A stretch of 64,000 nt of DNA, from NCBI GenBank assembly GCA_947259495.1, contig CAMYLV010000006.1:1-64000 (forward strand), read 5' to 3'. Shown piece by piece: positions 49,319 to 52,499 of the stretch. A program made the translations under genes and the position numbers. How positions within the stretch are numbered: position 1 is the stretch's first letter; every line of letters starts with the position of its first letter. The notes beneath the pieces are model-generated. The model was not told the origin of the DNA and searched no databases. It worked only from the letters and a program-made list of their open reading frames with translations. The stretch is from an uncultured Desulfobacterales bacterium. Its GTDB lineage: Bacteria; Desulfobacterota; Desulfobacteria; Desulfobacterales; JAHEIW01.

Positions 49319-49591
49319 TTAATCCTTCCCTTTAGCGGCAGTATTTCTCAATTCCCGCTGCGCTTCAACACAGTCACAATGACCGCCGATCGCTTCAATA
49401 AAATACATGCAATGATTTCGAACTGTCGATTTATCAGCGTATTTGCACCTTTTCTGGTCATTCCAGACTGCACCGGCACTACAGCGAGACATTACCCCCG
49501 GCACACAATAATTTGCCCTGACCAGCCTGAGATCGGGTTTATCCTCGCGCAACAGACAATTGCTTTTTTCATTCGGTATGCATTTCGTCAT
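49319..49591 (-). CDS. Small cysteine-rich protein of unknown function
   Basis: The 90-residue product (from ATG 49591) has nine Cys, arranged in the first two thirds and in a HCMYF...GGHCDCVEAQRE tail, which suggests metal binding. I do not know the family. A family-1 repeat ends 8 bases before this start and supplies the upstream DNA, including a TATAAAATA stretch. No clear ribosome site was seen. Longer in-frame sequence reads into the repeat and is not counted. Confidence 0.55.
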   Translation of the reverse strand: MTKCIPNEKSNCLLREDKPDLRLVRANYCVPGVMSRCSAGAVWNDQKRCKYADKSTVRNHCMYFIEAIGGHCDCVEAQRELRNTAAKGKD

Positions 49592-49598
49592 TATTTTA

Positions 49599-49699
49599 TA
49601 CCGCTTTCCATAATAGTGTTCCGATAATCGGAAGTGGGGCATAAGTGGTTGTAGAAAAAAACGTTTGAATATCGGAACGTTTTTTTGACAACCACTATA
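49599..49699 (+). repeat. Family 1 repeat, intact copy
   Basis: Reads TACCGCTTTCCATAATAGTG ... CAACCACTATA with TA on both flanks. It lies directly upstream of the Cys-rich protein gene. The rest of the gap to 50027 holds nothing recognised. Confidence 0.9.
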
Positions 49700-50357: not shown

Positions 50358-50558
50358 TCAGTCAACGAAAACCGTTCGTCTTTCCTTGCCCCTCTTCCTT
50401 TTTTCGTTGAGCTTTCTTCTACGATCGGCACCGCTTCTGCGGTCGTACTGCGTCCTTCTTTCGGGCCGATGTTCGATCGCGACAGAGCGTCGCCGCTCGG
50501 AGTAGGAGCGGGTGCCGCCGTTGTCGATAAAAGCAATCAGGTTATCCAAACTACTCAT
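50358..50558 (-). CDS. Small Arg-rich protein
   Basis: The 66-residue product has a short acidic/hydrophobic start (SSLDNLIAFIDNGG) and an Arg-rich remainder with repeated ERR / DRR patterns (RPERRTQYDRRSGADRRR). Such RR-rich stretches are frequent in small proteins or tails of deltaproteobacterial regulators. Function is unknown; nucleic-acid or membrane-phosphate binding is possible. The other two frames on this strand are open in part, so the exact frame carries some doubt. Confidence 0.5.
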   Translation of the reverse strand: MSSLDNLIAFIDNGGTRSYSERRRSVAIEHRPERRTQYDRRSGADRRRKLNEKRKRGKERRTVFVD

Positions 50559-50663: not shown

Positions 50664-51086
50664 TTATTTATTTTCGATCGGATATCCGGCCTTTTTCCAG
50701 GCAGCCCAGCCGCCTTTGAGGGCATAAACATTGCGGTATCCATTTTCAATCAAATGGCGTGCCGCCCGGGCACTGGTTCTTTCATTTTTTCAGGTACAAT
50801 AAATTATTAAGGTTTTGTCTCTGGCATATTTGGGGGCCCATTGCTTCACTGCGCCGGGCTCTTCGCGAACCGCATGGGTTATTTTTGCGGCGCTTCGCCA
50901 CCATGATTTAGGCGTGCGGACATCGATAAAGATTACATCCGGACTGCCAAGCATCTGTTTCGCCTGTTCAATGGAAATGCGCGGCACCTCAACTGAAGTC
51001 GCCGCAGCCGCCGGACAGTTAAAGGAGACAACGACCAGCAGGGCGATCAAAAAACCAGTGATTGCAGAAAAAATACGGATGATCAT
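50664..51086 (-). CDS. Exported rhodanese-like protein with in-frame UGA (probable selenoprotein)
   Basis: The frame has a signal peptide (IIRIFSAITGFLIALLVVVSFNCPAAA) and a rhodanese domain (VIFIDVRTPKSWWRSAAKI). It meets TGA at 50790-50792 directly after IIYCT and then stays open for 41 codons that complete the domain (KNERTSARAA, NVYALKGGWAAW, AGYPIENK) to a TAA at 50664. In relatives the position of the TGA is normally the second Cys of YCxC, so the codon is likely selenocysteine (Sec99 next to Cys97). A GC-rich hairpin 16 nt after the UGA fits a bacterial SECIS. The protein would handle sulfane sulfur or selenium in the periplasm. Start ATG 51086 is chosen for the signal peptide. The alternative is a nonsense-mutated gene. 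Confidence 0.75.
50759..50773 (-). promoter_or_regulatory. Candidate bacterial SECIS hairpin
   Basis: In leftward RNA, GUGCC (50773-50769) pairs with GGCAC (50763-50759) around a CGGGC loop. The apical loop begins 21 nt after the UGA and has G in its second position, both within the known range for SelB-read bSECIS elements. The stem is short (5 bp). Confidence 0.55.
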
Positions 51087-51549
51087 GGTTACTACTCTTG
51101 TAATACACTTGTAAGGCATGGCGCTATCTGACGTCATTATAGGGCTTCAATTTGAAGGGGTCAACCGCTTGAAAGGATTGATGATGATGACGCCTGGATC
51201 CCGCGCAGGCACAAGTAGGCTGAAAAATTGGAGCTGGCGTCAATTCGACGCGGCAGATCTATAGTCACCCAAAAAAAATAGGGGCGGCTCATGATGAGCC
51301 GCCCCCTCCCTAAGGAATTATATCAAACAGCGTGCCCGCCTGCACACTGTTGTTTTAATTATCGGTATTTTTAAAAAGAACTTTACCGCTAAATGTCAAT
51401 CAGCAGTTAGTCTCTTTCAACCGCGAAGGGCACGAAGGACCCGAAGAGGGGGTATCAATTTATTCATCCTGCCTTTGTGAGCTTCGTGATCTTTGTGGTG
51501 AGATCACTATCGGGCGTAAACGACTGGATCTTTCCAGATAACCACGTTC
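51087..51549. other. Intergenic region with a short degenerate heptad repeat
   Basis: From 51410 to 51510 the DNA contains CGAAGGGCACGAAGGACCCGAAGAG and the reverse-type TTCGTGATCTTTGTGGTGAG, a degenerate palindrome of heptads like those at 25.5 and 60.8 kb. The earlier part has GGGGCGGCTCATGATGAGCCGCCCC near 51281-51306, a strong GC-rich inverted repeat (GGGGCGGCTCAT/ATGAGCCGCCCC) that may be a terminator. No gene was seen. Confidence 0.6.
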
Positions 51550-51738
51550 CTAATTAATGGCTTCGATTTTGACAAACTCATTTTTTTCCTGGCAATACCA
51601 CTGATGCGGCCCGACACATCGATACTCCTCTTCGGAGAGGGCAATAATTCGCTGCGCAAAAGCGAGTGCCTGCTGCTTGTCGGAAAAGAGATTTCTCAGG
51701 GTTCCGATGTGTTTGCCATATTCAACAACGCAAATCAT
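51550..51738 (-). CDS. Small hypothetical protein
   Basis: The 62-residue product (ICVVEYGKHIGTL..., ending FVKIEAIN) looks like a compact alpha/beta domain with two Cys and a CVGPHQWYCQEKN centre. I do not recognise it. Base composition and frame resemble the surrounding genes; a weak GGA precedes the ATG. It stands alone. Confidence 0.55.
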   Translation of the reverse strand: MICVVEYGKHIGTLRNLFSDKQQALAFAQRIIALSEEEYRCVGPHQWYCQEKNEFVKIEAIN

Positions 51739-52223: not shown

Positions 52224-52499
52224 ATGGACCTTACCTTAAATTGGCTGGTAGAAATTTGGAAGACATTTAGTACTTGGACTTCCACCCAACCGACATTTAT
52301 TCAGGTAGCCTTCGGCATGGGCCTGTTTTATGGGGTGCTACAGCTATTGCGGCTGTCGTATCGCGTTACTGTTTATACCCTATCGGGATTGTTCGCCGGC
52401 CGCCGCCGGCCACGGACGAAAAAGGATTTCAAACCGCCCAACCGCTCGAAAAAACACGTCACCATGGATGATGACGCCCCCCCGTTTGTTTTCAGATAG
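52224..52499 (+). CDS. Small membrane protein
   Basis: The 91-residue product has one membrane segment at about residues 22-44 (PTFIQVAFGMGLFYGVLQLL) and a basic, Arg/Lys-rich cytosolic tail (RRRPRTKKDFKPP...) ending in DDDAPP. The function is unknown. The ribosome site is weak. Confidence 0.6.
   Translation: MDLTLNWLVEIWKTFSTWTSTQPTFIQVAFGMGLFYGVLQLLRLSYRVTVYTLSGLFAGRRRPRTKKDFKPPNRSKKHVTMDDDAPPFVFR

Follow-up and report, generated by a model that had tools for sequence, protein, structure and literature searches.

A rhodanese gene with a probable selenocysteine codon in an uncultured Desulfobacterales bacterium, a further member of the NF041203 family

A gene on the minus strand at 50664..51086 of the window (the whole stretch of 64,000 nucleotides that was analysed) encodes a rhodanese of 140 residues whose codon 99, an in-frame TGA, very probably specifies selenocysteine (Sec), judging from comparison of its sequence with that of its relatives. 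The gene is a further member of a known selenoprotein family, NCBIfam NF041203, and not the first of a new one. UGA recoding in this gene is strongly supported by the conservation of the frame and of a bacterial SECIS (bSECIS) hairpin, and by the selenium genes of the same genome.

Reading frame, family and neighbourhood

With the TGA read through, translation runs from an ATG at 51086 to a TAA at 50664-50666. The N-terminal sequence is MIIRIFSAITGFLIALLVVVSFNCPAAAATS..., and the rhodanese domain comes next. Residues 1-29 (51000..51086, minus strand) were read by eye as a probable signal peptide, with a hydrophobic core and then AAAA before T30, which gives the rhodanese the look of an exported protein. 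The TGA (50790..50792, minus strand) comes after IIYCT and completes a CxU motif, IIYCTU, at residues 94-99 (C97-T98-U99). Past it the frame stays open for exactly 41 codons (50667..50789, minus strand), which hold the remainder of the rhodanese domain and the motifs ERTSARAA, LKGGWAAW and AGYP. This confirms the open frame and the motifs described in the initial annotation, which named no strand. A second in-frame ATG lies upstream at 51137, but the best promoter-like site (51164-51136) reaches into it, so that 51086 is the likelier translation start.

That site resembles a sigma-70 promoter (TTGACC-17-TATAAT, 11/12 matches; 51136..51164, minus strand), and a terminator-like hairpin of 12 bp with a T run (51280..51306, minus strand) lies between the upstream minus-strand ORF and the rhodanese gene. 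The hairpin suggests a transcript that begins with the rhodanese gene. Both sites carry little weight because such sites are found at about chance frequency in shuffled sequence (two promoter-like sites in the region against a mean of 1.4, and two terminator-like hairpins against 1.1). Rfam gave zero matches at E ≤ 1 between 50000 and 52000. A Pfam scan of seven neighbours (E ≤ 0.01) recognised a trypsin-like/TPR protein and an iron alcohol dehydrogenase and left five small ones without a match, so that no functional partner is apparent. The gene order round the rhodanese is common to the three same-genus loci (L026-L028) and partly to L029-L031, which marks the gene as an orthologue and says nothing on function. 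Four small ORFs without a Pfam match (49319-49642, 50358-50558, 51550-51738 on the minus strand and 52224-52499 on the plus strand) have conserved counterparts close to the rhodanese in the same-genus loci.

The protein matches the Pfam rhodanese profile PF00581 over residues 39-133, a span that includes the UGA (54.9 bits against a gathering cut-off of 22.2; E 1.3e-14). With the UGA entered as C, it matches NF041203 (rhodanese_LYCAU, "rhodanese-related (seleno)protein") at 160.8 bits (1.2e-47) against a curated cut-off of 115. The match covers profile positions 3-126 of 126, the Sec lies two residues past the Cys of the YC motif and the motif is CxU in both; the window protein has IYCTU where the profile has LYCAU, with no difference of kind. 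In its entry for rhodanese-like form 3, a 2026 review (PMC13188914) lists NF041203 with the motif CxU and one Sec; the corresponding entry of a 2022 review (PMC9312934) gives a CxU form of COG0607 with the same example accession, TKB26178.1, and both entries cite Zhang and Gladyshev (2005, Bioinformatics). Given the NF041203 match and the CxU rhodanese in both reviews, this kind of selenoprotein was already known. The initial annotation was right to propose a Cys-x-Sec rhodanese with a bSECIS, exported-looking by its N terminus, and wrong to call it a new selenoprotein.

Other known systems are more distant. TsoB (NF045694), a rhodanese/DsbD fusion with the motif UxxxxU, likewise has Sec inside the rhodanese active-site loop, but the window protein scores 31.7 bits against its cut-off of 805, is without the DsbD part and differs in its Sec spacing. 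The rhodanese fold is shared by GlpE (1gmx) and the Wolinella polysulfide-sulfur transferase (1qxn), and the title of the 1qxn entry names polysulfide-sulfur transfer; GlpE differs in the Cys seen at its active site and in having two residues fewer beside the active-site loop in the alignment. In both proteins we take Cys, not Sec, to be the working residue. A contig search from short exact peptide patterns returned only two archaeal rhodaneses (33 and 35% identity), whose loops, VYCRSGRRS, are ordinary, and plasmid records gave zero matches.

The UGA and its hairpin among relatives

Of 194 relatives searched, 51 had a match at E ≤ 1e-10, and the NF041203 profile, run against 395 genomes of the phylum, scored above its cut-off in 61. 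All 84 matches above the cut-off and part of the weaker ones were taken into an alignment of 143 rows from 140 loci (L025-L164), with two rows each from L049, L107 and L164. At the position of the UGA the alignment has Sec in 120 rows, Ser in 12, Cys in six, Ala in two, Thr in one and a gap in two; the 84 rows above the cut-off divide into 73 with Sec, nine with Ser and two with Cys. Relatives had been expected to carry Cys at this position, an expectation that proved mostly wrong. Of the six Cys rows, four score under the cut-off and fall outside the main tree. L097 and L098 resemble ordinary rhodaneses of another type, and the two L164 rows, also with Cys, are outside the main tree. The UGA is kept in all three same-genus homologues found (L026, L027 and L028). 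From codon -70 to codon +40, the only UGA codons in the 120 Sec rows are those at position 0 (120 rows) and at -2 (21 rows), which makes error or decay an unlikely source of the UGA. One locus, L049 (genome G013), has two adjoining Sec-rhodanese genes of the family.

Substitution patterns were compared on the two sides of the UGA. Against L026, L027 and L028, dN/dS is 0.41, 0.12 and 0.34 after the UGA and 0.13, 0.29 and 0.31 before it; against the farther L029, L030 and L031 the values after the UGA are 0.23, 0.20 and 0.31, in comparisons where synonymous sites are saturated or nearly so. By these ratios, the part downstream of the UGA behaves as coding sequence under purifying selection.

The putative bSECIS core is the hairpin GUGCC/CGGGC/GGCAC (50759..50773, minus strand), which occupies nucleotides 17-31 after the UGA (50773-50759), so that the 16-nt spacer given in the initial annotation is right. 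Its stem has 5 bp and its loop 5 nt with a G at loop position 2; the UGA-to-loop spacing is 21 nt, which bears out the earlier claim that the loop suits known bSECIS spacing, and the minimum free energy (MFE) is -7.8 kcal/mol for a 39-nt fold and -9.1 kcal/mol for a 44-nt fold. Every one of these values is inside the limits given in the legend of Fig. 2 of PMC13188914 (a loop of 3-9 with G as its first or second base, a stem of 4-16, a spacing of 16-37 and an MFE of -7.5 or lower).

As a single sequence, a 48-nt stretch of the window folds no more stably than its dinucleotide shuffles (z -0.52; 58 of 200 shuffles equally good), and the case for the hairpin rests on the comparison of relatives. 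When the best hairpin within the allowed stretch was scored, the two gap rows having been removed beforehand, all 120 Sec rows had one of -4 kcal/mol or lower, against 37% of controls in which the protein was unchanged and synonymous codons were chosen at random; the 21 non-Sec rows reached the same threshold in 19% of cases against 21% of their controls. In three of the 120 Sec rows (L080, L130 and L159) the best hairpin is located away from the common place, and for a general 40-nt fold the Sec rows have only a moderate advantage over controls (mean percentile 0.229). The full five-pair stem is present in 115 of 119 distinct Sec sequences versus one of the 21 non-Sec rows. Homologues with other residues, which the initial annotation had regarded as evidence against Sec, are a minority, mostly with Ser.

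The loop G is invariant in all 119 distinct Sec sequences. One pair of the stem joins the third base of a Ser codon (mostly AGT/AGC) to the third base of an Ala codon (mostly GCA/GCG); it is kept in 118 of 119 (shuffle mean 95.1, maximum 101) as T-A in 76, C-G in 36, T-G in six and C-A in one, counts that come from related sequences, not independent events, in a sample picked by similarity to the window protein. Since the covarying positions are mostly silent, selection on the protein does not explain the covariation of the stem.

Selenium machinery and other readings of the UGA

The genome, 97.27% complete, holds the genes that the initial annotation had proposed to look for. One match each above the curated cut-off was found for selA (C1, 614.9 bits), selB (C7, 358.3 bits) and selD (C2, 358.7 bits), and a single match for tRNA-Sec (C10, 75.2 against a gathering score of 47) has an anticodon that reads UCA. 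An in-frame UGA is also found within selD, in TCGU-AAKIGP, which we take to be the usual Sec site of SelD.

Further Sec candidates of the rhodanese kind were seen in the same genome. The gene at L165:1114-1968 (C35), probably another Sec rhodanese, carries an in-frame UGA where classical rhodaneses have the catalytic residue (VIVYUAVGGRS), and its C-terminal part gives matches to ferritin-like families, all below cut-off. A three-domain rhodanese at L166:926-2104 (C5), with a start that looks lipoprotein-like by eye, has an in-frame UGA in its first domain (FYCGGPTUKLSHKSA) and Cys at that place in the second. L167:2448-4199 (C14) is a TsoB rhodanese/DsbD selenoprotein (989.7 bits against the cut-off of 805) whose rhodanese loop contains two in-frame UGAs; it adjoins further rhodanese genes.

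If the UGA were a true stop, the gene would be a pseudogene or yield no more than a truncated rhodanese, and what follows the UGA would be a remnant frame. Of the 28 frames in the window that stay open from stop to stop for 250 codons or more, six end in UGA, so the codon apparently also works as a stop in this genome. Some members of the family also have a UGA at codon +42, the usual end of the protein. Against termination at codon 99, the frame and motifs past the UGA are conserved over 120 rows with zero UGA in codons +1 to +40, the ratios above point to purifying selection there, the hairpin is held by synonymous covariation, and selA, selB, tRNA-Sec and selD are all in the genome; we give this reading a very small chance. 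A smaller one still goes to decoding as some amino acid other than Sec, by a general change of the code or by near-cognate read-through. Sequence nowhere directly states the identity of the residue, which leaves room for such decoding, but a tRNA-Sec, SelA, SelB and a UGA-containing SelD are present, the full stem goes with the UGA-bearing sequences, and long open frames still terminate at UGA. Pseudogenization and general recoding were both rejected on these grounds.

An error of sequencing or assembly, which the initial annotation had named as a possible objection, would need to change a single base of a Cys codon (TGC or TGT) to give TGA. The identical TGA is present in three genomes of the same genus (G001, G002 and G003), in one of the same family (G004) and in 115 other rows; as independent genomes carry it, an error was rejected, and its probability is negligible. 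Insertion of Sec at codon 99 is by far the most probable of these readings.

The active-site loop and the use of selenium

An AlphaFold model, computed from an alignment of 39 hand-picked rows out of the 120 Sec rows with every UGA written as C, has a mean pLDDT of 90.5, with low values in the first 30 residues. Across those 39 Sec rows Tyr96, Cys97, Sec99, Glu102, Thr104 and Ser105 are invariant. The best Foldseek matches of the model are rhodaneses: 2hhg (E 5.8e-8), 6mxv, GlpE (1gmx, E 6.8e-6) and 1qxn (E 1.5e-5). Beside the active-site loop the family is two residues longer than GlpE or 2hhg, and because of these extra residues alignment alone cannot place Cys97 or Sec99 at the classical nucleophile.

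In classical rhodaneses the catalytic Cys lies at the YC motif that closes the strand. The model has a strand at 92-96 and a helix from residue 100, and the rows that have lost Sec mostly retain the Cys (CxS in ten, CxA in two and CxT in one, against SxS in one). These features lead us to lean towards Cys97 as the residue that takes up the sulfane sulfur, a preference somewhat better than even. Sec99 may instead be the nucleophile that bears the sulfane sulfur, with Cys97 resolving it, a variant within the Sec reading to which we assign somewhat under half of the weight of that reading. The classical catalytic Cys aligns with Sec99 in the profile alignment to both domains of 6mxv, where the loop is gapless, and in the protein alignment to GlpE, where a two-residue gap precedes the loop; it aligns with Cys97 in 2hhg, with a gap within the loop. 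The position of the YC motif at the strand end, with the helix already under way from residue 100, and the retention of Cys in paralogues without Sec count against the variant.

With either residue as nucleophile, a course of events can be proposed. SelB and tRNA-Sec would translate the UGA of codon 99 as Sec, directed by the hairpin 16 nt downstream, and in the folded protein the active-site loop of the rhodanese would bring Cys97 and Sec99 together. One of the two would take up sulfane sulfur as a persulfide and its partner would resolve it through a reversible Se-S bond. Outside the cytoplasm, the protein may in this way pass on or reduce zero-valent sulfur, as polysulfide or persulfide, this last step with its substrate and partner being a guess from the fold.

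The codon of the partner Cys is also TGA in 21 of the 120 Sec rows, giving a UxU motif (L026, L050, L052, L063, L069, L073, L084, L088-L092, L094, L119, L128, L129, L131, L132, L138, L153 and L160). They include the same-genus L026, and the full stem is present in all 21. These members apparently have two Sec residues, with one hairpin serving both UGAs six bases apart. Placed on a tree of 140 rows, which has few columns and a bootstrap that is not settled, and from which the two gap rows and the short L107 piece were left out, the UxU label requires 15 changes (gains or losses), at least ten of them forced by well-supported branches. A limited literature search found no UxU form of the NF041203 family in the parts of the publications that it covered.

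Loss of Sec has mostly led to Ser. Eight of the 12 Ser rows (L096, L101-L107, L110, L111, L143 and L149) use TCA, one base off TGA, at this position, versus nine of the 85 other Ser codons in those genes, for which a binomial calculation that ignores kinship gives 5e-6. Seven of the Ser rows form one clade, and several come from genomes in which Sec forms are found as well. In L101 the Ser codon is TCA, yet all five stem pairs are still there, which looks like a recent loss of Sec with a fossil hairpin. The UxU form and the losses mostly to Ser, both features of relatives and not of the window gene, seem to be less well known.

Sec is here rarely replaced by Cys and is lost mostly to Ser, and the partner Cys and a second Sec have replaced each other, in either direction, at least ten times on the tree. 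It is possible, though we hold it doubtful, that Sec in this family is not simply a better and interchangeable Cys, and that the chemistry needs selenium itself. Were this so, candidates would include selenium handling and a diselenide or selenenylsulfide whose potential lies beyond the reach of Cys, and the UxU members would form a natural series for double Sec insertion from one bSECIS.

With the window gene, a known selenoprotein family gains a well-supported member. The comparative set assembled around it, with Sec, double-Sec, Ser and Cys forms and a Ser form with a fossil hairpin, would allow tests of the reason for using selenium in a rhodanese and of the way in which a single bSECIS might act on two neighbouring UGAs.
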